Shown: positions 2,312-29,926 of the stretch, one piece after another
How positions within the stretch are numbered: the stretch's first letter is position 1
Layout: each line of letters starts with the position of its first letter
NCBI RefSeq assembly: GCF_014201465.1
Contig: NZ_JACHEP010000026.1
Location: 1-43,979, forward strand
Direction: 5' to 3'
DNA: 43,979 nt
Source of the DNA: Anoxybacteroides tepidamans
Lineage (GTDB): Bacteria; Bacillota; Bacilli; Bacillales; Anoxybacillaceae
Notes under the pieces: model-generated
Databases searched by the model: none
What the model saw: only the letters and a program-made list of their open reading frames with translations
Told to the model about the DNA's origin: nothing
Position numbers and translations under genes: made by a program

Positions 2312-2875
2312 CTAACTAAAAATCTTTGTTACATCAAGCGAAAATGCGGGAAAAACAGATGAACATATGTTTCCTTTTTCCTTGATCACATCAATCTGGT
2401 CGTATTGACCTCGTTCGTTTAGCGCATAAACTTGTATGCTATTTAGCATCGGATTGACAATCCAATATTCTTTTACTCCATAGCGCATATAAATATTTAG
2501 CTTAAAAACTAAATCATGCGCTTGATTGGATGGACTTAAAATTTCTATGATCCATGTAGGCACACCAACATATTTCTGATCTTGCAACCCTTCTTTATCA
2601 CAAATGACGCATAAATCAGGAATGACAATATGTTTTTCGTCAATCTCATCGCTGTACAACTCAACATCAAATGGGGCATGAAACACTTCACAATCTGTTC
2701 CTTCAAAAAAGTGAAAAAGTTTAACGTATATGCGTCCAGATATTCGCTGATGCTTTGTAGACGGTGAAGGAGTCATACATACAACCCCATTCATATATTC
2801 CAACCGTTTATCTGTTGCCTCTTTTAATTTATAATACTCCTCCAACGAGATCAAACGTTGCTTAGCGACGTTCAC
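2312..2875 (-). CDS. Uma2-family (DUF820) PD-(D/E)XK endonuclease-like protein
   Basis: About 187 residues. The Uma2/DUF820 family adopts a restriction-endonuclease-like fold and is expanded in cyanobacteria and some Firmicutes; the biological role is unknown. Visible features are the N-terminal LISLEEYYKLKE helix, RLEYMNGVV, the HQRISGRIYVKL helix, the core VIPDLCVICD (acidic catalytic residue), VPTWIIEILSPSN (second acidic position) and KEYWIVNP. AAAGGAG lies 7 bases before a GTG at 2875; a TTG one codon earlier is less well spaced. It is a single gene, with MITE copy 1 just upstream. Confidence 0.85.
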   Translation of the reverse strand: MNVAKQRLISLEEYYKLKEATDKRLEYMNGVVCMTPSPSTKHQRISGRIYVKLFHFFEGTDCEVFHAPFDVELYSDEIDEKHIVIPDLCVICDKEGLQDQKYVGVPTWIIEILSPSNQAHDLVFKLNIYMRYGVKEYWIVNPMLNSIQVYALNERGQYDQIDVIKEKGNICSSVFPAFSLDVTKIFS

Positions 2876-2924
2876 CAAATCACTCCTTTTTTACTCCATT
2901 ATACTTTCCCTTTGGAATTGCTTC

Positions 2925-3166
2925 TATATAAATACAGCTGGGAAGTTTAACTTATGGCGGACGAAAAAGTAGACTCCCTATTTTTTCGACTGTCGGAGGT
3001 AAGTCTGTGACTGGCCTTCGTCACGCCTTCGCGTGACAGAGGACCGAACAACCAACCGCTTCACCGACAAATGCATTTGTCTGGAAGCGGTGTTGTTCGG
3101 TCATACGACAGTCGAAACATACCGATTACTCCATAAAAGGCGAAAACGTCAAATTGCATTTATATA
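2925..3166 (+). mobile_element. MITE copy 1 (TA-targeting, about 242 bp)
   Basis: The ends are imperfect inverted repeats beginning TATATAAAT(A/G)CA. The interior folds back on itself: GACTGTCG pairs with CGACAGTC, and a near-perfect hairpin (about 3043-3101) has GACCGAACAAC and GTTGTTCGGTC as its arms. Copies 2 (9657-9904) and 3 (41425-41675, inverted) are closely similar. This copy lacks about 10 bases next to its right end. No coding capacity. Confidence 0.8.
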
Positions 3167-3233: not shown

Positions 3234-3863
3234 TCATTTACGCGAAAATACATACGACTGTATCATCATATAAATCGTGCCGACAAATACGATCATTATA
3301 AGGAGAACAAAGCGCCATACACTTTCTACAAATATTGTTAGCATAATCAGTACGCCCATGATGACAAATACTTTGCCGCCAAGGCGGTGCGTTTTTTGCC
3401 AAACCGTTTCGTTTTCTAACGTCCACGGGGTGCGAATGCCGATGAAATAGTTCGGTTTAATTTTTGGTAGATAGTTTCCAAGGACAATAAATAATACTCC
3501 TATTCCAATCGGAATAAATAGGTCAATTTGAACAGGAATCCCGACATTGTATGCAAGCGTACCGAGATGAAGCGTGAAAAAGAAAGTGACGAGCACGTTT
3601 AAAAAAAGACGATATACCCCTTGAAACTTCTCGTAATTTTCTTTTCTCGGATCTAATTTCGGGAGGGCGGCCAACAACACAACGATGCCTGTTAAAAAAA
3701 GTGGAAATAAAAGTGCTCCCCACCATTTGTTCGCAAAGCCGTCTGCTTCTCCGGCGGCGTTCCAATGAATCGCTACCTCGTTTGGCAAATACGGAATCGC
3801 CACGAAGCTCACAACATAACTACATACAATCAAACTGATGACGAACACGTTTTTCTTCATCAT
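3234..3863 (-). CDS. sdpI: SdpI-family membrane protein
   Basis: A 209-residue polytopic inner-membrane protein with an N-terminal DUF1648 segment (IPYLPNEVAIHWNAAGEADG) and a C-terminal SdpI domain (YFIGIRTPWTLENETVWQKT), about six hydrophobic segments. In Bacillus subtilis SdpI gives immunity to the SdpC killing factor and relays its presence to the repressor SdpR. The first codon overlaps the last bases of sdpR by four bases (ATGA), so the two are translationally coupled. No sdpABC toxin genes are visible nearby, so here the pair could protect against foreign SdpC-like peptides or serve another membrane-stress role. Confidence 0.88.
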   Translation of the reverse strand: MMKKNVFVISLIVCSYVVSFVAIPYLPNEVAIHWNAAGEADGFANKWWGALLFPLFLTGIVVLLAALPKLDPRKENYEKFQGVYRLFLNVLVTFFFTLHLGTLAYNVGIPVQIDLFIPIGIGVLFIVLGNYLPKIKPNYFIGIRTPWTLENETVWQKTHRLGGKVFVIMGVLIMLTIFVESVWRFVLLIMIVFVGTIYMMIQSYVFSRK

Positions 3864-4135
3864 TGTTCACCTTCTTTTTGTAATATATCGTAAAACCAGC
3901 TCATTAAGTCTTGGAAAACGGTCGTATTTAATGAATAGTAAATATGCTGGCCGACGCGCCGGTCTTCAATTAAGTCCGCTTGCTTTAATATTTTTAAATG
4001 ATGAGAGACGCTCGGCTTTTGCATCGCAAAATGATCAGCAATTTCCCCTGCTGTTAAGTCCCCTTTTTTTAATAGCGAAAGGATTTTTCTTCTGTTCGGA
4101 TCGGCAATCGCTTTAAACGCCTCATTAAACGACAT
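3860..4135 (-). CDS. sdpR: ArsR/SmtB-type repressor, SdpR-like
   Basis: A 91-residue winged-helix repressor. It matches B. subtilis SdpR closely in pattern: FKAIADPNRRKILSLL, then the recognition helix region KPSVSHHLKILKQADLI, then HIYYSLNTTVFQD near the C terminus. There are no metal-binding cysteines, as expected for SdpR rather than metal sensors. I take the ATG at 4135, which has GGTGA seven bases upstream; a GTG one codon earlier is possible. It is the first gene of sdpR-sdpI and probably represses its own promoter through the repeats at 4155-4226. Confidence 0.9.
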   Translation of the reverse strand: MSFNEAFKAIADPNRRKILSLLKKGDLTAGEIADHFAMQKPSVSHHLKILKQADLIEDRRVGQHIYYSLNTTVFQDLMSWFYDILQKEGEQ

Positions 4136-4154
4136 CACACGCTCACCAACTTTC

Positions 4155-4226
4155 CTTTAGATATTTAGACAAATTTCTAAATATCGATCAAAAAAATTAG
4201 ATATTTAGATAAATTTCTAATTACAT
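4155..4226 (-). promoter_or_regulatory. Paired operator-like repeats upstream of sdpR
   Basis: Two near-identical copies of TTAGATATTTAGA(C/T)AAATTTCTAA lie in tandem about 20-90 bases upstream of sdpR. Each has dyad symmetry (TTAGAAATTT ... AAATATCTAA), typical of ArsR-family operators. Autoregulation by SdpR is inferred. Confidence 0.65.
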
Positions 4227-4456
4227 GATATTCCATAACGTGTTTGTATGTCAATCATTTTTCCACGACATAAGAAAAGAGCAGCAAACAAGGTGCCCTT
4301 TATAGCAGACTAAGCAATGCTTTACATAAGACAAAACGCATGGTAATGAAGGTAAAAGTCCCCCCTCCACTATGCGACTTTAGACAATACAAAGATACAT
4401 TATCCGCACTTAAAATTCCGACAAATGCGATATGCTCGTCCTTACGCCCATCTTTC

Positions 4457-4492
4457 CAAAAAAAGAGAGCCATCATTGTGATGTGGCTCTCT
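4457..4492 (-). terminator. Rho-independent terminator of ahpCF
   Basis: The stem AGAGAGCCA/TGGCTCTCT (4464-4492) is followed on the minus strand by eight T residues. It ends the ahpC-ahpF unit, 14 bases after the ahpF stop. The 4250-4455 region beyond it holds no gene I can support. Confidence 0.85.
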
Positions 4493-4505
4493 GAACAATA
4501 AATAT

Positions 4506-6035
4506 TTAATTTCGAATGAGATAGTCAAACGCCCCTAATGCTGCTGTAGCACCTGACCCCATTGAAATAATGATCTGCTTATAGGCACTATCCGTGCAGT
4601 CCCCTGCCGCAAAGACGCCTGGAACATTTGTCGCACCATGTTTATCGACAATAATTTCGCCGAAACGATTGCGTTCCACTGTTCCGTCTAACCAATCGGT
4701 ATTTGGCACAAGACCGATTTGAACAAATACCCCTTGCAATTCAATATGATGCTCTTCTCCTGTTGCTCGGTCGATATACGTGATGCCATTGACTTTATCT
4801 GTACCCGTAATTTCTTTCGTTTGCGCATTTTTGATGACCGTCACGTTCGGCAAGCTATACAAGCGGTCTTGTAACACAGCGTCCGCTTTTAATTCTGGCG
4901 CAAATTCAAGAACGGTGACATGTTTGGCAATTCCTGCAAGGTCAATCGCTGCTTCGATACCAGAGTTACCGCCGCCAATGACCGCGACATGTTTTCCTTC
5001 AAACAACGGACCGTCACAATGCGGGCAGTAGGCGACGCCTTTGTTTTTGAACTCCGCTTCGCCCGGTACACCAAGGTTGCGCCAGCGCGCACCTGTGGCG
5101 AGTATGACCGCTTTGCTTTTTAAAACAGCGCCATTTTCAAGCTCCACTTCAATCAAGTCTTTCTTTTCTAACCGTTTCGCACGCTGCAAGTTCATAATGT
5201 CGACGTTGTAATGTTTCACATGTTCTTCAAGGCTTGCGGCAAGCTTTGGACCTTCTGTATATTTGACGCTAATGAAGTTTTCAATGCCTAACGTATCTAA
5301 AATTTGCCCGCCAAAGCGTTCGGCAACAATGCCTGTACGAATGCCTTTACGGGCCGCATAAATGGCGGCCGTTGCCCCCGCAGGTCCGCCGCCGACAACA
5401 AGCACATCAAACGGTTCTTTTTCAGCAAACGCAGAGGCATCTGGCGCACTTCCCAATTTTGCGAGAATTTCCTCAAGCGACATGCGACCGCTAGCGAACG
5501 GTTCGCCGTTTAGGAATACGGTCGGAACTGCCATAATGCCTTTGCTTTCTGCTTCGTCCTTAAAGGCAGCACCATCAATCATCGTATGCGAAATGCCAGG
5601 GTTTAGGATGCTCATCAAGTTCAACGCTTGAACAACATCAGGACAATTATGGCATGTCAAACTAACGTAAGATTCGAAACGATATGTGCCTTTAATGTTT
5701 TTAATTTGGTCAATGACCGCTTGATCGACTTTTGGCGGTCTTCCGCTTACTTGAAGCAACGCGAGCACTAATGAAGTAAATTCGTGCCCTAAAGGGACAC
5801 CGGCGAATGTTACACCAGTATCTTCGCCGATACGATTAACACTAAAGCTTGGCGTTCTCTGCAGCTGCGTTTTCTCTACTTTAATTTTCGGTGACATTGT
5901 CGCTAATTCATCGACTAAAGCGAGCATGTCGCGGGAAACACGATCGTCTCCCGCGCTCACTTTTAGAACAATGTCATTTTCTATCAATTGTAGATATTGG
6001 GCTAATTGCGCTTTTATTTCTGCATCCAATATCAT
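4506..6035 (-). CDS. ahpF: Alkyl hydroperoxide reductase subunit F (NADH:peroxiredoxin reductase)
   Basis: A 509-residue flavoprotein that passes electrons from NADH through FAD and two disulfides to AhpC. Domain order is normal: an N-terminal double thioredoxin-fold domain with CHNC at 128-131, the FAD site [10 protein letters not shown] at 215-224, the redox-active CPHC at 337-340, the NAD site [10 protein letters not shown] and the closing FAD motif VFAAGDCTD. Length is typical. AAGGGG precedes the ATG. It lies 12 bases after ahpC in the same transcript, under the PerR-type promoter of ahpC. Confidence 0.96.
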
Positions 6036-6047
6036 GGCGATATCCCC

Positions 6048-6611
6048 TTAAATTTTCCCTACAAGATCAAGGCTTGGTTTAAGCGTTTCAGCCCCTTCTT
6101 GCCATTTCGCTGGGCAAACTTCCCCTGGATGGTTGCGAACGTATTGTGCCGCTTTAATTTTGTTAATAAGCGTGCTTGCGTCACGGCCAATACCGTCAGC
6201 ATTAATTTCAACAGCTTGGATGACGCCGTCTGGATCGATGATGAACGTACCGCGTTGCGCAAGGCCTGTTTCTTCATCAAGCACATCAAACATGCGAGAT
6301 AGCTTTTGCGAAGGGTCGCCGATCATCACGTACTCGATTTTGCTGATGGCTGGAGACGTATCGTGCCATGCTTTATGTGTGAAGTGTGTGTCTGTTGAAA
6401 CAGAATATACTTCAACACCAAGCTCTTTTAATGTCGCATATTGATTTTGTAGGTCTTCTAATTCTGTTGGGCATACGAATGTAAAGTCCGCTGGATAGAA
6501 GCAAACAACACTCCATTTTCCTTGGAAGTTTTGTTCCGTAACATCAATAAACTCCCCATTATGATACGCTTTTGCTTGGAATGGTTGTACTTGTTTTCCG
6601 ATTAAAGACAT
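6048..6611 (-). CDS. ahpC: Alkyl hydroperoxide reductase subunit C (2-Cys peroxiredoxin)
   Basis: A 187-residue typical 2-Cys peroxiredoxin that reduces hydrogen peroxide, organic peroxides and peroxynitrite. The peroxidatic Cys47 is in [12 protein letters not shown] and the resolving Cys166 is in GEVCPAKWQ near the C terminus; the catalytic Thr/Pro of PxxxTxxC are in place. AGGAGGT stands before the ATG. First gene of ahpC-ahpF. The partner reductase AhpF is directly downstream. Confidence 0.97.
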
Positions 6612-6647
6612 TGCTCATCTACCTCCTGAAAATAGTGGTTTGTTAAA

Positions 6648-6662
6648 TTATAATAATTTTAA
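6648..6662 (-). promoter_or_regulatory. PerR box of ahpCF
   Basis: TTATAATAATTTTAA differs at one position from the PerR consensus TTATAATnATTATAA. It lies just downstream of the -10 element, so bound PerR would block the start region. It implies peroxide-induced expression. Confidence 0.75.
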
Positions 6663-6672
6663 TTCGATATTT

Positions 6673-6701
6673 ATTATCATATAGTAGTATCTATTTGTCA
6701 A
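6673..6701 (-). promoter_or_regulatory. SigA promoter of ahpCF
   Basis: On the minus strand TTGACA (6696-6701) and GATAAT (6673-6678) are separated by exactly 17 bases. Confidence 0.8.
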
Positions 6702-6756
6702 TACATATGATTTAATTTCTTTCGATCTTAGTTATGGAATGTGCAAAACTATTGTT

Positions 6757-8181
6757 TCACTGCATCCACGTATACACCGCTTCCGCTTCTTTTTCGTCAA
6801 CGTCCGTGACTTTGGAAAACATTTTGGGCATAACAGCGACGGCAAGCGTACTAAGCTGCTTCCGTTTCTGAAGCCACGTTGCGGATGTTGCGACAGATTG
6901 GATGCGGTATTTTAGCATATAAATCGTTTGGATACGGAACATACCGCTTCGCAAAGCCAGTTGATTCGCCGAAATCGCCCATCCCGCCATTTGATAGCTT
7001 TTATAGCCAAGATAACTAACGATCGGCAATAAAAGCAGCAGTCCCATTCCCCATGGCCGTAAAACATAAGCGACCATACCTATCGGAATCGCAAACACGT
7101 ACACAGGACGAAGCATATAGCGAACACGTGCCCGTTGAGGTAGCGCCTGAAATTCATGATGAATATGGTACTCTGGAAGGCAAGCAGCAATAACGGAAGC
7201 AGCTCGTTCCTTTTTCATAAACGGACAAAAGACGACACTCCCACTCTCTCCGCCGTCTAACGAACCTCCGGCATGAATGATATGCACAGAGACATAACCA
7301 AGCAAGCGTTGAACCACGTTTTCTTTTATTATAATCCCCTGTACTCGCTTCCTTGATACGGTGAGAAGTTGTTTTTCAAATAATCCCCGTGAAATAACAA
7401 TCATGTCTTCTTGTTTTCGAACCGTAAAAAACGCGTAGCGCAGCAGATGACGCCCGACAGAAATAGCATAGGCCACTACGAACAAAACAAAAATTGCCAC
7501 TACGCCAGACAATGTATTGCGGACAAACCCAAGCGCTTGCACCTTGCGATATAAAGCATCGTACGAAATAAAATCGTCCAACTGAGAAATAAAGGCGGCG
7601 ATTGCTGCTAGTACGCCAAACACTCCGCCACTTGTGACCGATAATAAAAACACGTCGCGAAAACGAAGAGAGAAAACAATATCGTTTGGCTGTTCCGAAC
7701 GATTAATTAATTCGATCGTTTCATCATGAACGACACCTTCTTTCACTTTTCGAATTTGTCGCGCGATTTGCTCTGCCTCTTTTTTTGTCACTGCCGTTAA
7801 AATCGCTTCTGCTTTCCCTAATTCATTGCCCGCCGTTTCGATGCGTACTTGAACCACTCCGACCAACCGCTGGAAAAAACCTGCCGAAATCGAAATCCCT
7901 TGAATGCGCTCAAAAGGAATGGAACGTTTTTTTCGAAGGAATACACCTTGTTCAATACATAACTCTCGTTCGTTTAGCTGGTACGTGAAACGAAGCCAAG
8001 TGAAAAATCCAATCAATGTCGTATACAAAAGAACAACGGTCGGAACCGCAATATTCCAGCCAAGCGAAACAGTACGGGCTTTCATCACTACTAGCACGAG
8101 CAGCGGAAACAACGTATCGATCAATTGTTTAGCAATATGGGAAATGATCGAAATCGGATGAAGCCTCTTTTTTTCAAACAT
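6757..8181 (-). CDS. ydbT: YdbT-family membrane protein with bacterial PH (bPH2) domains
   Basis: About 474 residues. Paired hydrophobic segments near the N terminus, middle and about residue 380 alternate with bPH2/DUF304 domains (for example RKKRSIPFERIQGISIS, SRKRVQGIIIKENVVQRLLG and LKYRIQSVATS). In B. subtilis the SigW-controlled ydbS-ydbT pair contributes to resistance to antimicrobials made by other bacilli. I choose the ATG at 8181 because AAGGTGG lies nine bases upstream; an upstream TTG has no ribosome site. It overlaps the end of ydbS by 8 bases, so they form one operon. Confidence 0.88.
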   Translation of the reverse strand: MFEKKRLHPISIISHIAKQLIDTLFPLLVLVVMKARTVSLGWNIAVPTVVLLYTTLIGFFTWLRFTYQLNERELCIEQGVFLRKKRSIPFERIQGISISAGFFQRLVGVVQVRIETAGNELGKAEAILTAVTKKEAEQIARQIRKVKEGVVHDETIELINRSEQPNDIVFSLRFRDVFLLSVTSGGVFGVLAAIAAFISQLDDFISYDALYRKVQALGFVRNTLSGVVAIFVLFVVAYAISVGRHLLRYAFFTVRKQEDMIVISRGLFEKQLLTVSRKRVQGIIIKENVVQRLLGYVSVHIIHAGGSLDGGESGSVVFCPFMKKERAASVIAACLPEYHIHHEFQALPQRARVRYMLRPVYVFAIPIGMVAYVLRPWGMGLLLLLPIVSYLGYKSYQMAGWAISANQLALRSGMFRIQTIYMLKYRIQSVATSATWLQKRKQLSTLAVAVMPKMFSKVTDVDEKEAEAVYTWMQ

Positions 8182-8650
8182 CTCGATCGTCCACCTTGAC
8201 AAATGCTGAAATCACATGGCGCAACTTCTCGGCTTCTTGTTCATCAAGCGCCGGAATTTCATGTACCGTTGCAGCTGTAAAAATAGTGATGGAAGCGAGT
8301 TTATACTTTTTTAACAACGGTCCTTGTTTTAAATCGACGTGTTGGACACGGCTCATTGGAATGAGCGTACGTTTGATGATCCATACCCCGTGCTCAATTT
8401 CAATTTCTTGTTCGCGTACATCGTAACGCCACCGTTGCCAACGCCAGCGCGGCCACAACAGAACAAACAAAAACAAATCGGCGAGAAACAAAACAGCGAG
8501 CAAAAAAACAACCCATTTTGGCCCATCGAATTTCATAAGCAAAAAACAAACGATGATATACACAAGTAGAAATATAGTGAACCGAATCAACGCGTATATT
8601 CGCCAAACCGATACCGCCCGCTCGGAGATCCTCTTCGAAAGCTGTGCCAT
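8174..8650 (-). CDS. ydbS: YdbS-family membrane protein with one bPH2 domain
   Basis: 158 residues: a short cytoplasmic N terminus, two transmembrane segments (about 23-43 and 48-68), then one bPH2/DUF304 domain (QEIEIEHGVWIIKRTLIP, MSRVQHVDLKQGPL, and the LASITIFTAA strand). It is the small partner of YdbT and precedes it as in B. subtilis. AAAGGATG stands before the ATG. I looked for a SigW promoter (TGAAAC-N16-CGTA) upstream and found none. Confidence 0.88.
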   Translation of the reverse strand: MAQLSKRISERAVSVWRIYALIRFTIFLLVYIIVCFLLMKFDGPKWVVFLLAVLFLADLFLFVLLWPRWRWQRWRYDVREQEIEIEHGVWIIKRTLIPMSRVQHVDLKQGPLLKKYKLASITIFTAATVHEIPALDEQEAEKLRHVISAFVKVDDRDV

Positions 8651-8744
8651 ACTTTTTACATCCTTTCACCAACTGCAATAATTTTCATCGACAAAAGTTC
8701 GTCTCACTCCTATATTTCTTTATTTTACCATAAATGACGGCTAA

Positions 8745-8816
8745 AACGTTCATGAACAAGCTTTGCTCGCCACCCAAGCATGAAAATATTCACACACGGA
8801 TCGTTATTTTCACAGA
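8745..8816 (+). repeat. Dispersed repeat, copy A
   Basis: This segment, with CATGAACAAG, the CCACCCAAGCATGAAAATA block and TTATTTTCACAGAAAA, recurs with about 80% identity at 28530-28605. In the second copy the ends pair (ATCCATGAGC with GCTCATGGAT). Function unknown. Confidence 0.6.
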
Positions 8817-8878
8817 AAACAGAGAGCCACGCTACGACTCTCTGTTTCTACAAATCTCGACAATCCTTGTGGGGCGAC
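8817..8878. repeat. REP-like hairpin repeat (copy 1), also a likely bidirectional terminator
   Basis: AAACAGAGAG/CTCTCTGTTT is followed by CTACAAATCTCGACAATCC and a GGGGCGACA end. The same unit recurs at 21060, 28401, 29836, 32581 and 37562. Here it sits directly after the ypiB/reoY stop and may end that transcript. Confidence 0.7.
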
Positions 8879-8881
8879 AAC

Positions 8882-9421
8882 CTAATCATATTTTTTCAAT
8901 TCCTCTGTTAACTTTTGAAACAGGGCGACATCTTTTCGATCAAGCGCTTGGTCAATTTGCATCTTCAAAATCGAAACTTCATGGCGCTTTAACGCTTCGT
9001 CCAACACTTGCTCGGCGGCTTTAGCCATTTTTTCATTGTATTCGTGCCTCCGGACATTTTCAAACGCCCGATGATCAATGAGCCTAAGATAAGAAAAATT
9101 TCTTGTCTTTCCAGGAAAATGGAGCGTCAAATAAAGCGGTTCATTCAGATGCAAAGCAAGGTCTCCTATAATCGTTGCCAAGCTGGTGCTTTTTTGACCG
9201 CGGCGATAAAATACGAGCCCTTCTTCCTCCGACATCATGGTCGAAATAATTAGCCACCGCGAGCTTTTTTGGTCTTTTTCAGTAAAATGGACAATTTCGA
9301 GCAGATGGTTATGTTGAAGCAAATAGTTCAACACAAATCGTGCATCTGGGTGCTTTAGACGGTAATTTTGCAAAAAGGAAGTTAAAAAATTGCGTTTTTC
9401 CAAACACGACACCCACTTCAT
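8882..9421 (-). CDS. YpiB/ReoY family protein (UPF0302)
   Basis: 179 residues. The N-terminal UPF0302 domain runs to about residue 105 (KRNFLTSFLQNYRLKHPDA, ARFVLNYLLQHNHLLE), followed by a short charged C-terminal helical domain (QIDQALDRKDVALFQKLTEEL). In Listeria the homologue ReoY helps target MurA for ClpCP degradation, so a role in controlling peptidoglycan synthesis is possible. I chose the ATG at 9421 because AGGAGGT lies six bases upstream; a GTG two codons earlier overlaps it. The sequence is rather diverged from the B. subtilis protein, so a paralogue is possible. Confidence 0.82.
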   Translation of the reverse strand: MKWVSCLEKRNFLTSFLQNYRLKHPDARFVLNYLLQHNHLLEIVHFTEKDQKSSRWLIISTMMSEEEGLVFYRRGQKSTSLATIIGDLALHLNEPLYLTLHFPGKTRNFSYLRLIDHRAFENVRRHEYNEKMAKAAEQVLDEALKRHEVSILKMQIDQALDRKDVALFQKLTEELKKYD

Positions 9422-9471
9422 CGCCACACCTCCTCATATAACTTATCCGTTAACAGCCGCAAAGCTTGCCA

Positions 9472-10491: not shown

Positions 10492-10788
10492 TTATTCATT
10501 TCTCTCATAAATCACCATTCCATCGCGTTCGATTTGCCGCTCGATTTCTTGATTCAACGAATCGCAAAATAGCACATCGCACGAATAAACGCCGACAATG
10601 TCGTCGATATCACTGATCACTTTTCCTTTTTGCTTTCCCTTATAATCAATGCATAAATCAATATCGGAATGATGCCGCGCCGTATCTTTTGCGCGCGAGC
10701 CAAATAAAATTACTTTTTGAATCTCTTTCTCGCTTTGAAAATACGCGATTAGGCGCTCAAAGACATTTTTGTTAATTCCATGCGTCAT
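10492..10788 (-). CDS. MNT-type minimal nucleotidyltransferase antitoxin
   Basis: A 98-residue minimal nucleotidyltransferase. The catalytic signature GSRAKDTARHHSDIDL is at 30-45, with Asp42 and Asp44 as the metal ligands, and Asp72 (SCDVLF) as the likely third acidic position. In HEPN/MNT toxin-antitoxin systems this protein neutralises the HEPN ribonuclease, in studied cases by adenylylating it. The gene overlaps the upstream HEPN gene by 17 bases, so the two are coupled. No strong ribosome site, consistent with coupling. Confidence 0.88.
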   Translation of the reverse strand: MTHGINKNVFERLIAYFQSEKEIQKVILFGSRAKDTARHHSDIDLCIDYKGKQKGKVISDIDDIVGVYSCDVLFCDSLNQEIERQIERDGMVIYERNE

Positions 10789-11227
10789 GATCGATCACTT
10801 CTTCTTTAATTTTTTGCAACAACACTTCGATTTGCTGAACGTATTCATCAACAATTTTTTGCTTGATTTGTTCATAATCCTCTTCATTATATATATGAGC
10901 CGTTGCATTGCGCGAGCTTAATATATCGTTCCATATATCGATATTTTCAATCCATCCTTGCTTGAAAGCTTGCCGATAGCACGCTCTTGGGCTATGCAAC
11001 TCCAATCCAGACGCCTTGAAAATCTTCGACAACAGCTTCCAAAGCTGATCTTCAAGAATCTCGTATTTTTTGACAATCGAATCTCTATACACTTCCCTCA
11101 TCAATTTATCTTCGGTTGTGGCTTGTTGGGAAGCTGAAATAACGTTTTTTAAATGCAGCAATAGGCGAAACGCATATTGGTATGACAAAACGATCGATTC
11201 TTTATATTTGTCGAATAAGTCGCTCAT
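10772..11227 (-). CDS. HEPN-domain ribonuclease toxin (HI0074/NTase-substrate-binding family)
   Basis: A 151-codon alpha-helical protein. The HEPN RNase motif RNATAH (Arg106 to His111) is intact, in the pattern R-N-x3-H used by HEPN toxins. The AAGGAGATG ribosome site fixes the start at ATG 11227; an in-frame TTG overlaps that site. It is the first gene of the HEPN/MNT pair, an order known for the HI0074/HI0073 type. Such pairs act in plasmid maintenance or phage defence, and they are frequent neighbours of other defence genes, as here next to the pPIWI-RE operon. Confidence 0.85.
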   Translation of the reverse strand: MSDLFDKYKESIVLSYQYAFRLLLHLKNVISASQQATTEDKLMREVYRDSIVKKYEILEDQLWKLLSKIFKASGLELHSPRACYRQAFKQGWIENIDIWNDILSSRNATAHIYNEEDYEQIKQKIVDEYVQQIEVLLQKIKEEVIDHDAWN

Positions 11228-11611
11228 GGATGCATCTCCTTCCAAATTTTTAACTTTCTCCGTCCACTTCTAGTGCCTTTTAAAAATTGCTCCATTAATT
11301 CATATATCGTTTCGTCTCTGACGCTTTCGGGGAGAAGTCCGTCTTGAAGAAGCAAGAGAATCGCTTCCATATGTTCATAAACAACATCTTCTTTTTCCTC
11401 GGACCTGCCGCCGTACATATTAAATTACTTAATAATACCGATTGCTTCCGCAAATTTCTTCCGATATTCGCGGTCATGTTTTTGTGCCGTTTCTTTGGCA
11501 GTCAAGCACCCTTTGCATTCTAAAAAAATCCAGCGCCCGTTCTTGAACACGTTTGTCCGATTGAATCAAGTTCAGCGCAAGCTCCAACAGTTCATCGTGG
11601 GAAAGCCGCTG
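11224..11611 (-). pseudogene. Decayed gene of unknown family
   Basis: Two overlapping minus-strand pieces look like one broken gene. The first (ATG 11611) reads VQRLSHDELLELALNLIQ and stops after about 47 codons; a shifted frame continues as GRWIFLECKGCLTAKETAQ to a stop near 11424. A second piece from 11418 (VVYEHMEAILLLLQDGLLPE) runs to 11224 and ends four bases inside the HEPN gene start. I do not recognise the family; a frameshifted nuclease-like gene is one possibility. Confidence 0.35.
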
Positions 11612-11668
11612 AACCATTTTTTGTATATTTATGCACATCATTCCTTACGATCTTCCTGTTTTTTCGTT

Positions 11669-14023
11669 CTACAACACCATCTTAGCATATTCTTTCGCCT
11701 TTTGTGCAAGGTGTAGTGGCAACGGCATTAACGTGTCCATGTCATCGTATTGCAAGCTCGTTTGATTTCGCAGCTCATACGTGAGTAGAGCGAGTGTTTC
11801 CGGTGATTGTCCCTCTGCACAAATCGGGATGGTCAATTCTACGGCGGTCGATCGTGGCAAATTTTTGTTCGGTTGTTGAAGCTTTGTTTTTTTCGGATTG
11901 ATTCCTTGTCCCACACCCTTTGGCTTTGAGCCGATATTAAAAAAGACGCGGTCATTGAACTGGAATACGCCCGTTGGAAACGAGCTTGCGATTTCCGTCA
12001 TTTCACTGTATTCGTCGATGCTGTCAAACACCGTCCACTCCGGTGTTTCCCCTCCTTCTTCATCACGCAGGCGGACGATACTCACATTGCGAAATAGAGC
12101 AAACGGATGGACAGACGTATGAATGTGTTTATTTTGAAACCATTTCGTTGAGCCGCGGATGTTTTGCGCTTCGGCAAACAGTACGATGTGATCCGCCTGT
12201 ACTTGCTGCAATGCGCCGCAAAGGAATGTATTCACCTCTTGCTCAGGCAGACGGTCGCTTTCTTTCGCCAGCATAAGCAGCCCTTCATGATACGGCATCC
12301 ATCCTTTATGGGGAAGCGCCATTTTGATTTCGTTCGCATCGACTTGCACCATGATTGGATAATCGATTTGCTTTTGGCTCGTGCGTTTATTTCGCTGAAT
12401 ATTGTACAAGCCTATAAACGCCGTATTCTCATGCCGTTCCAACACCGCTTGTCCCCTTCGCGAAACAACGCCTGCTTGCCTAAACAAGTCTTCCACCGCT
12501 CTTTTAAAACGGTTTTCCGATGTAGTGTCATCTTCTGCCGGATCAATAGGGCGAATAAATTGCGTCCATTTGTTGTGATTGACGAACATATGCCTAATAA
12601 AATCTTTTGGGTCGATGCTATGGCGAAATTCGTCTTTATCCTTTAATTCAAAGAAGCAAAACGCTGGAGAAGCGTCGTTGTTCAACATTTTCCCGATGCG
12701 TTGGACTAAAAGCTTCTTTCCATTCGCCTCGTTGCTCTCGATATCCAACGACTCCGTAATGGCGCGTTCTTTTACAATAATTTTAGAGGATCCGTATGCA
12801 TAAACGTTTTGTTCGTTCGGCGCTTCAATATCTAACGATTGAAACAATGTTTCTTTCACTTTCGCAAGCCATTCGGCATCGGAGTACCATATTTCAATCG
12901 TCATAGCAGGCGGTAGCTTTAATTGTGTTTTTTTTCTATTTTTTGAAGATGATTGAATTCTTTGGCAAACAGGAAACGGATCAACGTTGGATAACTGTTG
13001 GGCGATTGCCTTGGCAATCTCGATCCGCTCCTGAAAACCTGCCCCCGCACCGATTGGATGAGTCCCCCATAGATGAGTACCGTATGGTATAAATGTGTTA
13101 AATTCGTGGTTCTTTTCCCCTTCCAAATGGAGGCGTGGATTGTCAAACACCGCTTCAATCTCAGGCAGCAGCCTTCCATATCCCATTTCTTGCAACACAT
13201 CGTTTGCTTGATGTTTCCACCTCAAATGCCCATTTCGTTTTTTCACCGATGCTTTGACCATCGGGGCCACATCAGCGATTCCGCTAATCCACGGGTACGT
13301 TCCTTGTAAATATACAGTAGCGCCTGTCTCTCGCAAAGAAGCTTTATGAGCCATCCAACGCACGGCGCTGACATAAATATAGAGGTAAGGAACCGATTCG
13401 AACGGGATGGTTTGCATTTTGAATGTCACTTTATATGAAAAATATTCGCGTTTTTTTCGAATCGTTACTTGTTCCGGTGGCCAGCTGATCCACTCGGCGC
13501 CTTGCGATAGAGGAACGCATACGTCAACAAAATGCAAATGCTTGCCCAAAGATGGGATGAACAGATTCTTATTAAGTTTTACAGAAATGATTTTCGGCAC
13601 ATATTGATAAGCAAAACCGTCGCTCAAGTCGGCTGTTCCTTGCTCATTAATGACGATATTCGCCACTCTTTCTTCCTCTTTCATCTCCATGCCACTTAGC
13701 ACATCAGGAGGAAGGGGTTTGTGAAAATGAACAATATACCATGACTCGATGATATGCTTTAATAAATCAAGATCAACTGGATGACGAGAAAAGAGCCACG
13801 GCTCATTTGGATTAAAAAAAGCTCGGTTATTGACAAACAATAAATCCATCAATAACATTTGCATGGTGTCATGCAGCGAAACAACTGGCACTTTGTAATG
13901 CTTATGTTGCTCTATGAAATGCTTCCATACATACGGAACATAAACGCTGTATCCTTTAATTACATGGCTTTCTTTCATTGGAACGGCAAGTACTTTAATG
14001 AAGTTGCGCTGTTTCTTTCGCAT
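11669..14023 (-). CDS. pPIWI-RE family PIWI protein
   Basis: A 784-residue protein of the prokaryotic PIWI-RE family, distantly related to Argonaute/PIWI. The N-terminal two thirds match the pPIWI-RE-specific N-terminal and MID-like regions (YSVYVPYVWKHFIEQHK, WISGIADVAPM); the last 250 residues are the RNase-H-like PIWI module with LFAEAQNIRGSTKWFQN (615-631) and PRSTAVELTIP (723-733). The latter probably carries the conserved Arg and Glu that name the family, Arg724 and Glu729. The family is predicted to act in RNA-guided or R-loop-directed interference. The ATG at 14023 follows directly after an in-frame stop and overlaps the helicase gene by 29 bases, so it is translationally coupled. Confidence 0.88.
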   Translation of the reverse strand: MRKKQRNFIKVLAVPMKESHVIKGYSVYVPYVWKHFIEQHKHYKVPVVSLHDTMQMLLMDLLFVNNRAFFNPNEPWLFSRHPVDLDLLKHIIESWYIVHFHKPLPPDVLSGMEMKEEERVANIVINEQGTADLSDGFAYQYVPKIISVKLNKNLFIPSLGKHLHFVDVCVPLSQGAEWISWPPEQVTIRKKREYFSYKVTFKMQTIPFESVPYLYIYVSAVRWMAHKASLRETGATVYLQGTYPWISGIADVAPMVKASVKKRNGHLRWKHQANDVLQEMGYGRLLPEIEAVFDNPRLHLEGEKNHEFNTFIPYGTHLWGTHPIGAGAGFQERIEIAKAIAQQLSNVDPFPVCQRIQSSSKNRKKTQLKLPPAMTIEIWYSDAEWLAKVKETLFQSLDIEAPNEQNVYAYGSSKIIVKERAITESLDIESNEANGKKLLVQRIGKMLNNDASPAFCFFELKDKDEFRHSIDPKDFIRHMFVNHNKWTQFIRPIDPAEDDTTSENRFKRAVEDLFRQAGVVSRRGQAVLERHENTAFIGLYNIQRNKRTSQKQIDYPIMVQVDANEIKMALPHKGWMPYHEGLLMLAKESDRLPEQEVNTFLCGALQQVQADHIVLFAEAQNIRGSTKWFQNKHIHTSVHPFALFRNVSIVRLRDEEGGETPEWTVFDSIDEYSEMTEIASSFPTGVFQFNDRVFFNIGSKPKGVGQGINPKKTKLQQPNKNLPRSTAVELTIPICAEGQSPETLALLTYELRNQTSLQYDDMDTLMPLPLHLAQKAKEYAKMVL

Positions 14024-17000
14024 TTTCGTCCACTAAAACTCCTTTCACATTTTTCAACCCTTGAATGATGGGTTCATACAATTTTTGCAAAATAAAAGAA
14101 TCGTCTTGACAAGCAAATCCTTCTACTTCATCTTTCCAAGTCAAAATCAAGCTCGTTGCACAAGTGTCACGATTGGCGATTACGGTTTCAGGCGCAAAGC
14201 TTGCATCACATAACACGATTTTCGCTGGAACATTTCCGCGAATGAGACGGCCTGTAAGCTGCCATACAGGAACGAACAAATCCATCGTTAAATGCCTTCG
14301 CTCGGTCATATCCAAATACCGAAATCCTCTCTCGTTTAAAAGCATGCTTTTTTGGATCGCGTAAGCCGTCTTTCGCTGATGCAATATGGCTTCTCTAATG
14401 GTGTCATGCTTTTCACCTAGATGTAGAATTTGCTCTATCGTATAAGCGTTGAGTCGACTCACAATCCTTGACATATCAAAAGGTCTTGGATAAGGACGTA
14501 CAAGAAACATAGCCGTATGAAAAGCGGCGACCTTCTTCGAATCAACCGTGCATAAAATATTGTGCCCGCGCTCTAACGCCAACAGCGGAACGACTAAAAC
14601 AGATCCGTTCGATTTGACAAACGATGCGACTTTTTGTCTCGGCCATGCGCCTTCATCAAGTGATGCCCCATATTTCTTAGTTAAATAGTAAATGTCCTTT
14701 CGTTCAAACATGTTTCTCATCTCTTGACCAACAAGCTCTGCCTCTTCGTACGAACCAACCACCATAAGTAAACGCTTCCTACCGTCGCTTGCGCTTTCAA
14801 GTTCCTGATCAACAATTCCTGTTCGTTTGAGAGCTGCTACCGCTTCTTGAAGAGCTTGATTACGTTTATCTCCTTCTTTCCCAGAAACGCTAATTGGTTC
14901 GTTGTTTTGATTGTAAAGCGGCGCAAATACGACCTCCACTTTCGGAGGCTCTTCCCCTTCCTTTTCCATGAAGTAATGAACCGGCAATTGAATCTCGTAC
15001 TTGGCGGAAAGTGGCGCTCTGCTTGTGCCTGATAACAAGATGACGGCCGCTCCCTTTTTTCCGTCTAGTGGCTCAAAAAAGCGATCGAGATGCGTAAGTA
15101 TATACCGACCAACGCCGATGATTCGGGTGAACTTTAAAATTCCTCCTTTTGCATAAGCCTGTTCCTCGCTTTCATAGCGAAAACCCATTCCAATGCCGGT
15201 CGGCGAAATTGGCATAAGCCCTTCATAATCTTTCGGAGGACCTTGAAAGACCGATGCCATTTGTTCGATATCAATATGTTCAAATTCCGCTGAAATCACA
15301 TCGAAACGCCGCACTAAATAAAACAAACATTTTTCAAGAAGAAGAATCGTTAAGGCAAACCGCAATTTTTTCTCTAACAAATATTTTCGATTTTGAAGTG
15401 TTAAGTTAAAACGTTTGCTTGTCAGTTCCAACCATTCCTTAATTAAAGCGGATGACTCTTCATCATCTTGGATCAGCTGGTTTGTAATTGACTTTAGCAA
15501 TCGTAAAGAAGTGCTTTTTGACAATTTTCCACTTTCTTCGTCGTCTTGATAGAAACGAAGGAAATCATTTAACTCTCCCCAAAGCTTCTGAAACGCTGTG
15601 CTCACTTGATGCTGTTCATCATCGTTCTTTATATTCAACAAAGAAAGCGTAAATTGCAGCAACAATTTATAAGCAGTGAAATACTGTTTTCCAACAAAAG
15701 TGTAAATACCCCGTTCTTGTTGCAGCTGCGAATAGGCAAGATAAACGGCTGACATCGCATTTTGCAACGTGCGATTCCACTTGTCAATTTGCGGGTTTTT
15801 TAAAGCGAGCTTCGATTTATACAGTTCTTCATTCATTTTTCTATGAAGCCGCTCTAACCAGCTTGTCGGTGACCCAGCCACCTCTTCCTCAGGCGCAAAG
15901 ATTTGATCCAACTGCGACTGCACCCGATCGGCCTCATCGACAAGAATCAAATGAGAACGACGGTACACATACTCCAACATCCTCATGCGAATGCCTGAAA
16001 GCGCTGGGGGAAATTCGCTATAAACAAGTCCTTGTATCGTCGCCACGAAAATCGTCGCATCCGATAAATCATGATAAGCATAATGATATGGGCATTCGAA
16101 AAAGTATGGGCAAATAACCGAGCGATTGTTTTGTTTGAGATGAAAGCACGGTGGTGGTCCATCCACGTCATGCTCTTGCATTTCTTGTATCATGCAAATG
16201 TCACATAAATAGCGCATCGCATGTTTTTGAAAGTTTTGAAGCGACGTGAACGATTCATCGATCGCTTGCATATAGTCATGAATATGCTGTTTTCGTTGGC
16301 GATAGCTGATGATTGGCACCGCTTTTATGCCGAGCGATTGAAAGTAATCGACCTTTGTTAAGACAGTGGCTACATCTCCAACAACAAGAGTCGTCACTTT
16401 GTTTTGGGTGTGTAAATAAAACGCCAATACATCCATCATCGTTGATTTGCCCGAAGAAAGCGTCCCAGCCCAATGCTGCGTCCCAGCAAGATACAATACA
16501 TCTGTACGCGAATGTGATTGGATGCATTCGTGAAACACGAGCGGCTCAATTCGTTCTCGAAAGCGATGTTTGGCCTCCCCGAAAATCTCCCTTTCAAGCT
16601 CGTCAAGACTTCCTGCTGCTTCCAATAAATCTTTTTTTGTAATGAAAAACTCCTCTTTCGGCGTATAGTTTGTATCAAGCTTCTTTGTTTGTGATGATTG
16701 GATGTATGTAGGAATTTGAAATGAAAATTCTCGATGCATGTCTTTAAACTTCGTGTTAACATCGTGTGTTGCTATTTCTTTCGTCGCAGAAACATGTGGG
16801 ATCACACCTGTAAGCAATTGTTCGTAAATCGCTGTACGGTCCGAATATTGAGTTAAGTTGTTCCATATGAGCTTTCCATCTTTATGAGAGAGATGGAGAA
16901 AGGTGTTCGGCACTTGCAAATGAAAATATTGTTCATACAAATGCGTGACGATGCCTTTTGATTTCCATGACGGCAACAGCACTTTCAAGTTGCTCCAAAT

Positions 17001-17246
17001 TCTTTTTTGCCGATCGGAAAAACGTTGAAACAACGGCAAGTAAGTTCCTGAATACAAATAGGAAAGCTGTTCAACCGTCCACATTTTTTCAGGCAATAAT
17101 TGCAATAAGCCATATGCAGCCGCTTCCCCTTTCACGATAATCCGCGCAACAGCACACGCTTCATCTTGTGGAAGTGACGTTTGTTCAAGACGCGTCTTTA
17201 CTTCTTCTATTAAAGTGGAAAAATATTTTTCAAATCCTACTCGCAC
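13995..17246 (-). CDS. DinG/XPD-like superfamily 2 helicase of the pPIWI-RE system
   Basis: A 1083-residue SF2 helicase. Walker A is GTLSSGKST (261-269) and Walker B is LILVDEADRV (around 433-442). A cysteine cluster between them (Cys348, 351, 367, 379, 385) fits the iron-sulfur domain of DinG/XPD helicases. The C-terminal RecA-like half ends in WQLTGRLIRGNVPAK, the motif VI region. The first 240 residues are specific to this system. The GTG start at 17246 has AGGAGGT eight bases upstream and overlaps the nuclease gene by 17 bases. In the known three-gene arrangement the helicase is proposed to unwind or remodel target duplexes for the PIWI protein. Confidence 0.88.
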   Translation of the reverse strand: MRVGFEKYFSTLIEEVKTRLEQTSLPQDEACAVARIIVKGEAAAYGLLQLLPEKMWTVEQLSYLYSGTYLPLFQRFSDRQKRIWSNLKVLLPSWKSKGIVTHLYEQYFHLQVPNTFLHLSHKDGKLIWNNLTQYSDRTAIYEQLLTGVIPHVSATKEIATHDVNTKFKDMHREFSFQIPTYIQSSQTKKLDTNYTPKEEFFITKKDLLEAAGSLDELEREIFGEAKHRFRERIEPLVFHECIQSHSRTDVLYLAGTQHWAGTLSSGKSTMMDVLAFYLHTQNKVTTLVVGDVATVLTKVDYFQSLGIKAVPIISYRQRKQHIHDYMQAIDESFTSLQNFQKHAMRYLCDICMIQEMQEHDVDGPPPCFHLKQNNRSVICPYFFECPYHYAYHDLSDATIFVATIQGLVYSEFPPALSGIRMRMLEYVYRRSHLILVDEADRVQSQLDQIFAPEEEVAGSPTSWLERLHRKMNEELYKSKLALKNPQIDKWNRTLQNAMSAVYLAYSQLQQERGIYTFVGKQYFTAYKLLLQFTLSLLNIKNDDEQHQVSTAFQKLWGELNDFLRFYQDDEESGKLSKSTSLRLLKSITNQLIQDDEESSALIKEWLELTSKRFNLTLQNRKYLLEKKLRFALTILLLEKCLFYLVRRFDVISAEFEHIDIEQMASVFQGPPKDYEGLMPISPTGIGMGFRYESEEQAYAKGGILKFTRIIGVGRYILTHLDRFFEPLDGKKGAAVILLSGTSRAPLSAKYEIQLPVHYFMEKEGEEPPKVEVVFAPLYNQNNEPISVSGKEGDKRNQALQEAVAALKRTGIVDQELESASDGRKRLLMVVGSYEEAELVGQEMRNMFERKDIYYLTKKYGASLDEGAWPRQKVASFVKSNGSVLVVPLLALERGHNILCTVDSKKVAAFHTAMFLVRPYPRPFDMSRIVSRLNAYTIEQILHLGEKHDTIREAILHQRKTAYAIQKSMLLNERGFRYLDMTERRHLTMDLFVPVWQLTGRLIRGNVPAKIVLCDASFAPETVIANRDTCATSLILTWKDEVEGFACQDDSFILQKLYEPIIQGLKNVKGVLVDENAKETAQLH

Positions 17247-18357
17247 TCTCTGACACCTCCTGTTCCATGATTCTTTTTATATAACGAACAAAATCTTTGT
17301 CGGTCATGATCGTATATTCTTGTCGGCATAACACTTTTAATTTTTCGACATATTTTGTTCCACGGTAACTCGGTACGATTAAAAATGCACGATCATATTT
17401 CGTTGTTTCGGAAAACGGTTTGACATGGAATGCCAATTGATGCGGCGTCGCCCAATCTTTGACATCGATCGCCCAATTTTCTCCTTGTTGAAATTTGATC
17501 GCGATGTCGTACTCATCTTTGTCAGGATATAGCTCAAGCGCAAACGGTCCGCCATTCCTTCTCATTTTGTCAAGCTGATTATACAAATCGATTTCACTCA
17601 CTCCCGGATCAACGATATAACGTCTAATGCCGCGCTTTACTCGCAATAAGCTGTTGCTATCTTCAAGAAAGCGGATATTTCCTTCCCAATTTCTCGTTAG
17701 TTTTTGGCATTTGTCGGTATCACATTGGTAACGACCATATACATCTTGATGTAACGTCCAGCCGCATCGTGGACAAATAGGAACGACAGACGTTAGCGGG
17801 ATTCGTTCATAAAATAAATTGCACAGTTGCTGAAAAGAACAAGAGGGGAATTGTTTCACTTTCTTTAAAATCTTCGTATCCGCAACGCGAACAACCGGAT
17901 GTTGAATCAAAAAGGTGCGTAAATGGCGATATTCCTCTTCACTCATTTTCCTTTTCATCTCTATAAACTCCGCCGTATCCTGCTCCAATACCGGATTCAC
18001 GCCCTCCTGCGCAACCATGATACAAAAATCAGTAACCGAAATATCATATAAAACAGGCTCGGTGAAATCTTCTTCTAATGAAAATAATTCTGTAAATCGA
18101 GGATACGGCCAAGTTGTTAAAGGCGTACCTAGCCATTTCATTTGTCGATCCAGTGTAAGCGGAAATAAATCACCCGGAGCGACTCCATACTTTAACCCGA
18201 TAAGATGCAAACGAGCCGAGGCTTTTTTCCAAGCAGAAGGCAACTCTTCCAATGTCCCTTCTTTATATTGCCGATCAAAATCTTGAATACCGCGCGCCAA
18301 CAACGCCACCGTTTTTAATACTTGCTGTTGGTAGCTTTCTTCTTCCAACGGATGCAA
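17230..18357 (-). CDS. pPIWI-RE system restriction-endonuclease-like protein with zinc ribbon
   Basis: About 375 residues. An N-terminal helical part is followed by a four-cysteine zinc ribbon (CPRCGW ... CDTDKC) near residue 210 and a C-terminal PD-(D/E)XK domain: DEYDIAIKFQQ, then the catalytic WAIDVKDWA. This is the REase component of pPIWI-RE operons. Start choice: GGAGGTG lies six bases before a TTG at 18357; an ATG at 18390 has no ribosome site, and an ATG at 18417 lies inside a terminator hairpin. First gene of the operon. Confidence 0.85.
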   Translation of the reverse strand: MHPLEEESYQQQVLKTVALLARGIQDFDRQYKEGTLEELPSAWKKASARLHLIGLKYGVAPGDLFPLTLDRQMKWLGTPLTTWPYPRFTELFSLEEDFTEPVLYDISVTDFCIMVAQEGVNPVLEQDTAEFIEMKRKMSEEEYRHLRTFLIQHPVVRVADTKILKKVKQFPSCSFQQLCNLFYERIPLTSVVPICPRCGWTLHQDVYGRYQCDTDKCQKLTRNWEGNIRFLEDSNSLLRVKRGIRRYIVDPGVSEIDLYNQLDKMRRNGGPFALELYPDKDEYDIAIKFQQGENWAIDVKDWATPHQLAFHVKPFSETTKYDRAFLIVPSYRGTKYVEKLKVLCRQEYTIMTDKDFVRYIKRIMEQEVSESASRI

Positions 18358-18406
18358 CAAATCCACCTCCACTTGACTATAATGATGCATGTATAAAAAC
18401 ACGAAC

Positions 18407-18444
18407 AAAAAAGGCATCTCAGAAATTTCGTTGTCTGAGATGCC
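18407..18444 (-). terminator. Leader terminator upstream of the pPIWI-RE operon (possible attenuator)
   Basis: The 10-bp perfect stem GGCATCTCAG/CTGAGATGCC (18413-18444, 12-base loop) is followed on the minus strand by six T residues. It lies between the best promoter (18465-18492) and the first gene, so transcripts from that promoter would have to read through it. Confidence 0.7.
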
Positions 18445-18464
18445 GGAGTGATGTAGTTATTGTT

Positions 18465-18492
18465 ATTATAATTTATTTTTGGTTTTGGACAA
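18465..18492 (-). promoter_or_regulatory. Probable SigA promoter of the pPIWI-RE operon
   Basis: The minus strand has TTGTCC (18487-18492), a 16-base spacer and TATAAT (18465-18470). The predicted start is near 18458, about 15 bases before the terminator hairpin. Confidence 0.5.
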
Positions 18493-20850: not shown

Positions 20851-21123
20851 GAGGATCATCCTTTCGTGGAATGTAGAGGGACAACTTGATTAAAACCTGG
20901 AAATATGGGAAATGCAAATGGGGAAAATGGATTTTCTAGCGTTCTTTTTTTGCGATAAAAAGCGAAAAAGTCAGGGAAATTGGCTTTTTTAATGAGGGGA
21001 AAATGAATTTTGCGTTTATTTGTTTGGCAAGGGAACAGATTTTGAGGAGCACACATGCAAAACAGAGAGCCACGCTATGACTCTCTGTTTCTACAAATCT
21101 CGACAATCCTCGGGGAGTGACAT
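20851..21123 (-). repeat. Rpn-associated leader repeat, copy 1, ending in a REP-like hairpin
   Basis: The region upstream of Rpn copy 1 is repeated upstream of copies 2 and 3: a TTGATTAAAA block, GGAAATGCAAATGGGGAAAA, AATTTTGCGTTTATTTGTTT and then the CAGAGAG hairpin (21060-21090) followed by CGACAATCCTCGGGG and GTGACA. Gene plus leader look like one dispersed unit of about 1.25 kb. Confidence 0.75.
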
Positions 21124-21430
21124 AACTAAGAGCCGAAATATCGGTCCGATTCTACAGGTAAATTAGTAAACACCCTTGGAAAGACAGTTAACACCAATCG
21201 TATCAATGAACATACCGGGAAGTGCGATAAACATAGCAGCTTTTAAACGTTCATTTTTTGTTAAACCTTTAAGTTTGTATAGCGGATAGGTTTAGAAAAA
21301 TGGCGGGAACAACAAACAGATAGGACAGAAGAAGTAAAGCATTTTCTGGGTTGAAGAAAAAATGTCCAAGAAATCGAAAAATGAGCGTGGCTCCTAACCA
21401 AACAAGAAAGCCCCAAATTAAAAAATACAT
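21124..21430 (-). pseudogene. DUF5367-like membrane protein gene, frameshifted and truncated
   Basis: From ATG 21430 (GAGGTG upstream) the frame reads YFLIWGFLVWLGATLIF and LLLSYLFVVPAIF, then breaks. A second frame gives LYKLKGLTKNERLKAAMF and ALPGMFIDTIGV, and a third gives FTNLPVESDRYFGS. Together this resembles DUF5367 small membrane proteins (about four membrane helices). The last part of the gene is replaced by the REP-like end of the Rpn leader repeat at about 21124. The 21431-21753 stretch further on holds only weakly coding-like scraps. Confidence 0.55.
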
Positions 21431-25034: not shown

Positions 25035-25158
25035 ATTCGATTTCGCAAAGCTTTAGGTGGGGTGGCACTCCCACATCTCCAACAAGGGCGATCGCTGCCT
25101 GTTCCATCCACTGAAAGCTTTACGTTATTTCTGTCTACTACACCGAAAGCATAAACAT

Positions 25159-28241: not shown

Positions 28242-28460
28242 GGAAAATAAGAAATGCAAATGGGGAAAATTCCATTTTCATGCACATTTCCTACAATAAA
28301 AAGCAAAGAGAGCCGGGGGAAATTGGCTTTTAATGACGGGAAAATGAATTTTGCGTTTATTTGTTTGGCAAGGGAACAGATTTTGAGGAGCACACATGCA
28401 AAACAGAGAGCCACGCTTGACTCTCTGTTAAATAATTCTCGGTGTGGGACAGGTACCACG
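28242..28460 (-). repeat. Rpn-associated leader repeat, copy 2 (distal part), with REP-like hairpin
   Basis: It continues the leader of Rpn copy 2 beyond the ISL3-like MITE: GAAATGCAAATGGGGAAAA, the TTTGCGTTTATTTGTTTGG block, then the CAGAGAG hairpin (28401-28430). The terminal CTCGACAATCC part is altered, but a GGGACAGGTACCACGAC end is visible. Confidence 0.7.
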
Positions 28461-29905: not shown

Positions 29906-29926
29906 CGCATCAGCCTCTTTCCTCCC

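Follow-up and report, generated by a model that had tools for sequence, protein, structure and literature searches.

A complete pPIWI-RE operon in Anoxybacteroides tepidamans whose PIWI cutting site seems to be lost while its nuclease and helicase motifs are kept

The window analysed herein is the whole stretch of 43,979 nucleotides of Anoxybacteroides tepidamans (contig NZ_JACHEP010000026.1, positions 1 to 43,979), and our subject is a three-gene operon of the pPIWI-RE family lying within it. Three minus-strand open reading frames (ORFs) follow one another as PprRE, PprDinG and PprPIWI (Table 1), and their positions agree with the order and with the overlaps of 17 and 29 bases given by an earlier note on this DNA, which was made from the sequence. 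For the first gene the longest ORF covers 17230-18417, with an ATG start at 18417 and 395 residues, whereas the earlier note began it at TTG 18357. The TTG looks the better start, because a GGAGGTG ribosome site stands 6 bases upstream of it and the ATG sits within a T-tailed hairpin. This hairpin, which comes before the operon and after a promoter-like site, has a z value of -4.55, none of 200 shuffles being equally stable, and it could be either a terminator of the upstream region or an attenuator of the operon. The promoter scan gave 18 such sites, no more than in shuffles, where the mean was 24.9. A conserved leader RNA was considered and rejected, as nothing similar was seen by eye upstream of the four closest relatives.

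The profile searches confirm the trio. In the third protein the Pfam models pPIWI_RE_X (2.3e-44), MID_pPIWI_RE (4.3e-14) and RNaseH_pPIWI_RE (3.3e-33) all score above their cut-offs, and so does pPIWI_RE_REase in the first (4e-27); pPIWI_RE_Y in the first protein stays just below (9.1e-6; 26.5 bits against a cut-off of 26.7), and pPIWI_RE_Z in the second is below as well (5.3e-4; 20.4 bits against 25). The check on five pPIWI-RE domains that the earlier note had proposed thus came out for X, MID, RNaseH and REase, with Z falling short. PADLOC assigned PprPIWI (6.5e-119), PprDinG (3.5e-125) and PprRE (4.6e-25), and every motif that had been listed (Walker A and B, the four Cys of the zinc ribbon, the four Cys of the helicase, IDVK and PRSTAVELTIP) is found in the translations. 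For the second protein Pfam gave no helicase model (E up to 1), nor did a PDB search with its profile bring up any solved structure (E up to 0.01); its DinG label is used because PADLOC and the motifs support it. An NCBIfam search of the trio found no relevant model, and PDB sequence searches with PprRE and PprPIWI gave chance-level matches only (E 0.46 to 0.77). As Pfam and PADLOC agree on a complete trio with the gene order of Burroughs et al. 2013 (PMC3702460; this and the other papers are cited for individual passages), the operon is a genuine and complete member of a known, poorly tested family.

To compare it with its relatives, genome contigs were scanned with a DinG alignment, which gave 236 relatives, and the best 80 were kept (79 distinct loci). 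The set used below has 85 loci, namely the window, the scan loci, five plasmid loci and one further genome locus (L010), less a duplicate (L074) and four loci, L001-L004, dropped as partial, own or false. The trio is complete in 81 of the 85, and in all 81 the order RE-DinG-PIWI runs on one strand, a few of them having one gene split over two frames or ended by a contig edge; of the four others, two have no PIWI gene and two no RE gene in the stretch examined. Among the best 80 of 236, the closest helicases are those of Halalkalibacter hemicellulosilyticus and Oceanobacillus massiliensis at 45 percent identity (38 percent for their PIWI proteins), followed by Paenibacillus thalictri and a Bacillus metagenome-assembled genome (MAG) at 41 percent.

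The PIWI protein merits particular attention, since the earlier note called the operon intact, which holds for the reading frames and fails at the catalytic site of the PIWI part. PprPIWI has Tyr at residue 540, on the strand AFIGLYNI, where the Asp of the first RNase H strand is expected. In the family member PsPIWI-RE of Pseudomonas stutzeri, D525 and D610 are reported to be catalytic and the family residues R639 and E718 to be dispensable for cutting (PMC10991935). Measured by spacing from Arg651, equated with R639, and not by sequence alignment to PsPIWI-RE, D525, D610 and E718 map near 537, 622 and 730 here. Arg651 is kept in 78 of 81 rows of the PIWI alignment and Glu729, within PRSTAVELTIP, in 77; judged from this spacing, the two would be the R and E that name the family. 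The alignment has 84 rows, in which one plasmid locus (L005 and L074) is counted twice, and 81 have a residue at column 540: W in 43, H in 16, Y in 7 and others, with Asp in a single row (L076). Since that row has Asn at 618, where PprPIWI has Glu, no row has Asp at both positions. Another two rows carry an Asp between 536 and 544, both off column 540, and across columns 530 to 575 acidic residues nowhere reach half of the rows, the maximum being 49 percent at 532. Moreover, in a second draw, picked by the Pfam RNaseH model in the family of a Streptomyces genome, Asp at 540 occurs in 0 of 31 rows (the 30 best-scoring fetched loci and the second system of one genome), among which L109 and L110 look like wrong frames and are uninformative. 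No classical Piwi model of Pfam matched PprPIWI. The cutting site of PprPIWI seems to be lost, and the RNase H site appears to be lost across the sampled branch; because Tyr540 replaces the Asp and nearly all of the branch shares the loss, PprPIWI itself probably does not act as a nuclease.

The two other proteins present a different picture. In PprRE the four Cys of the zinc ribbon are kept in 83 of 83 rows and E275 in 82; D301 and D304 follow with 80 rows, and the D and K of DVK (D318, K320) with 79. The helicase has its Walker A Lys (K267), its four Cys and the Walker B residues D437, E438 and D440 in 85 of 85 rows; the Walker A Gly and the G, R and R at 999, 1000 and 1003 in 84; and S268 (78/85), T741 (82/85) and H895 (77/85) vary conservatively. 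What is new here is the count of the Asp loss for this branch and its contrast with the conserved REase.

As for the surroundings, the trio does lie among other conflict genes as the earlier note had it, namely a HEPN/nucleotidyltransferase pair, a GmrSD remnant, and PD-(D/E)XK transposase-family, HipA-like and PIN genes. The HEPN/nucleotidyltransferase pair is of the HepT/MNT type, with the motifs RNATAH and GSRA..DID intact in the translations by eye. The HEPN gene was considered as a guide-maker and rejected, because a single-sequence phmmer search (E up to 1e-4), which would miss distant HEPN genes, found nothing similar at the remaining loci fetched, and the pair is treated as a neighbour, not as a conserved partner. 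Besides the GmrSD remnant, a helix-turn-helix gene with a neighbour matching PADLOC PDC-M08A lies upstream of the trio, together with a PD-(D/E)XK transposase-family gene that we take to be of the Rpn type; the HipA-like and PIN genes are farther away.

Table 1. Features of the window and, in the last row, of a separate region (L130) of the same genome, in that region's own positions.
Feature	Positions	Strand	Remarks
PprRE	17230..18357	-	Y domain, four-Cys zinc ribbon, PD-(D/E)XK nuclease; start TTG 18357, ~375 aa
PprDinG	13995..17246	-	1083 aa, GTG start; N-terminal Z-like region and DinG-type helicase, four-Cys cluster
PprPIWI	11669..14023	-	784 aa; X, MID and RNaseH-like domains
Promoter-like TTGTCC-16-TATAAT	18492-18465	-	5' of hairpin and first gene
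Promoter-like site, then 11-pair T-tailed hairpin	18403..18492	-	precedes ribosome site
HepT-like HEPN (RNATAH motif) and MNT nucleotidyltransferase pair	10492..11245	-	downstream of trio
GmrSD-type restriction enzyme C-terminal domain remnant, 63 aa	19009-19200	-	upstream of trio
Skipping-rope RNA (RF02924)	25049-25119	-	38.7 bits against gathering 36.7; beside HIRAN/HipA-like gene pair
~95-base repeat	8801-8897, 21046-21140, 28387-28475, 29818-29917, 32567-32662, 37575-37667	-	GTCACTCCCCGAGGATTGTCGAGATTTGTAGAAAC and stem
L130 pAgo/SIR2-like region	2344-3165, 3497-6812, 7120-8388, 8403-9461

One neighbour gene encodes UPF0302 and IDEAL domains; four of six other genomes of the genus have a close relative of it (79 to 84 percent identity), and the remaining two only a distant paralogue. 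In the same-genus genomes G010 and G015 the region beside it has no match to the trio genes, and in G013 the contig ends there; the region in G010 has several stretches like the transposase-family genes of the window, and in that of G015 a stretch of 352 bases resembles window positions 11281-11632, which lie just downstream of the trio. The comparison of G010 and G015 therefore places the trio in a variable region. Among the four closest trio loci, two adjoin genes of defence type: in Paenibacillus thalictri an OLD-type ATPase, a UvrD helicase and a PD-(D/E)XK nuclease lie directly upstream of the trio (L015, 3797-8521), of which the first two are presumably a Gabija-like system, and the nuclease is also found upstream in the Bacillus MAG locus (L013). 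A generic clustering of neighbours was swamped by overlapping frames in high-GC genomes. In Halalkalibacter a chaperonin gene, confirmed with Pfam, and its terminator immediately precede the trio, and the arrangement in Oceanobacillus looks the same by sequence likeness and ORF size; the chaperonin gene is a possible shared insertion site of these two trios. For the host such an insertion was rejected, as its groEL is on another contig and no trio stands in the ~1.5 kb after it.

The distribution of the family is patchy. RNaseH_pPIWI_RE is found in the host only among 41 genomes of its family, and in 2 of 398 genomes of a phylum draw, host included, once a false match had been removed (a PF13032 match in G195, to a translation-factor-like protein with a NYN domain); in a draw from the family of a Streptomyces genome, 73 of 249 genomes match. 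Relatives of PprPIWI occur in seven plasmid records, and relatives of a more distant PIWI protein in 15 Streptomyces plasmid records; no phage record matched PprPIWI, and the viral contigs gave no confirmed match for PprPIWI or for the DinG alignment. The patchy spread and the carriage by plasmids fit a horizontally moved conflict system, and a table passage lists the same REase family as carried by Tn7-like transposons.

Two further features of the genome were observed. One is a repeat of about 95 bases, with a conserved GTCACTCCCCGAGGATTGTCGAGATTTGTAGAAAC followed by a terminator-like stem, whose six copies in the window are all on the minus strand. Counting those of the window, the genome has 20 copies, some of them clustered (three in ~5 kb on contig C40) and several beside transposase-family or toxin-antitoxin genes, and the repeat is also present in two stretches from the same genus. 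No Rfam family matched it at gathering score, and the copies could be recombination sites of cassette type. The other is a classical prokaryotic Argonaute (pAgo; PF02171, 3.3e-14) in the same genome (L130, C24:34000-45604), adjoining a SIR2-like gene by eye; the SIR2-like coding region is apparently interrupted by a transposase, a metal-transport ATPase and an ArsR-like regulator (by eye), and a similar-looking pAgo/SIR2-like pair in another genome (L132) is uninterrupted.

How might the three proteins then work together? Because the REase and helicase residues are conserved while the PIWI Asp is lost, we somewhat favour a scheme in which this branch acts as a guided binder and brings in a helicase together with a separate nuclease, PprPIWI binding without cutting and PprRE doing the cutting. 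More specifically, PprPIWI would bind a short guide and base-pair with invading DNA or with an RNA/DNA hybrid; the bound complex would recruit or load the DinG helicase, which would open the duplex or move along it; and the PD-(D/E)XK nuclease of PprRE would cut the DNA. Guide binding is suggested by the MID and RNaseH-like domains and by the biochemistry of PsPIWI-RE, the helicase step by reported DinG-type helicases, and the cutting role of PprRE by the contrast in conservation between REase and PIWI; the order of recruitment and of action is what we infer from these parts, and the target would most likely be plasmids or phages. For the sampled branch as a whole, the description as a guide-directed recruiter system, with a cleavage-dead PIWI protein, a near-invariant helicase and REase, and the nuclease supplied in trans by PprRE, is put forward tentatively, as a proposal we judge slightly short of probable. 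If the recruiter scheme is true, most of the trios close to this one would fall outside the guided-nuclease model published for P. stutzeri. The apparent loss of the PIWI site beside a kept REase site makes such a division of labour directly testable, and as the PIWI part probably does not cut, biochemistry should seek guided binding and the recruitment of partners.

Several points weigh against this scheme. The second catalytic position is uncertain and may be 618 or 621-622: column 618 has H in 36 of 81 rows, D in 18, E in 14, N in 8 and others, and column 621 has N in 59, D in 13 and others. Tyr540 is put at the catalytic position by alignment rather than by a confirmed structure, and the PIWI alignment gave no alignment with three classical pAgos in hhalign (0.2 percent probability, outside the PIWI part). 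The relatives were picked by DinG likeness as the best 80 of 236, and lineages with an intact Asp like that of PsPIWI-RE may fall outside them. On the side of the nuclease, the D or the K of DVK is absent in 4 of 83 REase rows. As to function, the source of a guide was not found; the literature search, which covered neither preprints nor most subscription papers, turned up no study in which a pPIWI-RE trio was challenged with phages or plasmids; and the deletion of PIWI-RE in P. stutzeri altered survival under ciprofloxacin, which is not a defence phenotype (PMC10991935).

Other explanations have been weighed against the same evidence. Burroughs et al. proposed an R-loop-directed restriction, with hybrids arising on highly transcribed or replicating foreign DNA (PMC3702460), and here this would mean surveillance without a stored guide, in which RNA/DNA hybrids are what the PIWI protein detects, with DinG travelling along them and PprRE restricting the DNA. 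It agrees with the action of DinG-type helicases on R-loops (PMC3702460), with the cutting by PsPIWI-RE only in DNA/RNA hybrid pairs (PMC10991935) and with our coarse neighbour survey, where no guide-making gene was seen conserved near the trio. The MID domain is kept, however, and its conserved residues sit in the pocket for the 5' end of a guide (PMC3702460), which is why bound guides are favoured and we think the guide-free mechanism unlikely, though it deserves serious consideration.

The ciprofloxacin phenotype and the activity of PsPIWI-RE (PMC10991935) speak for quite another role, that of an active guided nuclease in an operon aiding host DNA replication or repair. This we consider improbable, as Tyr stands for Asp at 540, Glu618 lies near the second site and only one of the 81 rows has Asp at 540; moreover, a housekeeping role suits poorly a system present in 1 of 41 genomes of the family and 2 of 398 of the phylum, host included. 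It might also be supposed that the operon has decayed or is silent and serves no function today, since a T-tailed hairpin stands between the promoter-like site and the first gene, and remnants such as the GmrSD C-terminal piece are found among the neighbours; yet the three frames are long and open, their overlaps are coupled and the REase and helicase motifs are intact, which makes this reading very improbable.

The scheme of a non-cutting PIWI protein that recruits a helicase and a nuclease can finally be set beside the systems already described. Compared with the pPIWI-RE trios of Burroughs, Iyer and Aravind 2013, the operon has the same order, the overlaps, the X-MID-RNaseH and Y-zinc ribbon-REase architectures and the DinG protein with a Cys cluster, and no structural difference is seen; the catalytic Asp is lost here, and that paper itself reports catalytic residues in only a subset of the family and defines the family without them (PMC3702460). 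Since 2013 pPIWI-RE has been a named and little-tested prediction: in our literature search, the family terms were used more than six times only by that work and by the 2022 P. stutzeri study. The latter (Huang et al. 2022, PMC10991935) makes the earlier note's statement that guide and target are unknown partly outdated, since it describes PsPIWI-RE as an RNA-guided nuclease of single-stranded DNA and a DNA-guided nuclease of RNA. PsPIWI-RE shares with PprPIWI the R and E of the family at a similar spacing and a DinG helicase nearby, but it requires D525 and D610 for cutting, near which, by spacing, Tyr540 and Glu618 stand here. In type IV-A CRISPR systems a guided binder likewise acts with a DinG helicase, CasDinG, which is reported to unwind double-stranded DNA and RNA/DNA hybrids and to be needed for plasmid clearance (PMC10450177); the trio is not a member, having no Cas gene and a separate REase. 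In Ddm, according to a passage of a review, a helicase-nuclease is brought to plasmids by an inactive pAgo, so that an inactive PIWI-type protein is again the recruiter, whereas here the helicase and the nuclease are two proteins; this comparison is by description and not by sequence, and the trio is not filed as a member. Should the REase indeed cut under the guidance of the PIWI protein, inactive PIWI proteins paired with DinG helicases would be a recurring design for the control of plasmids and phages.

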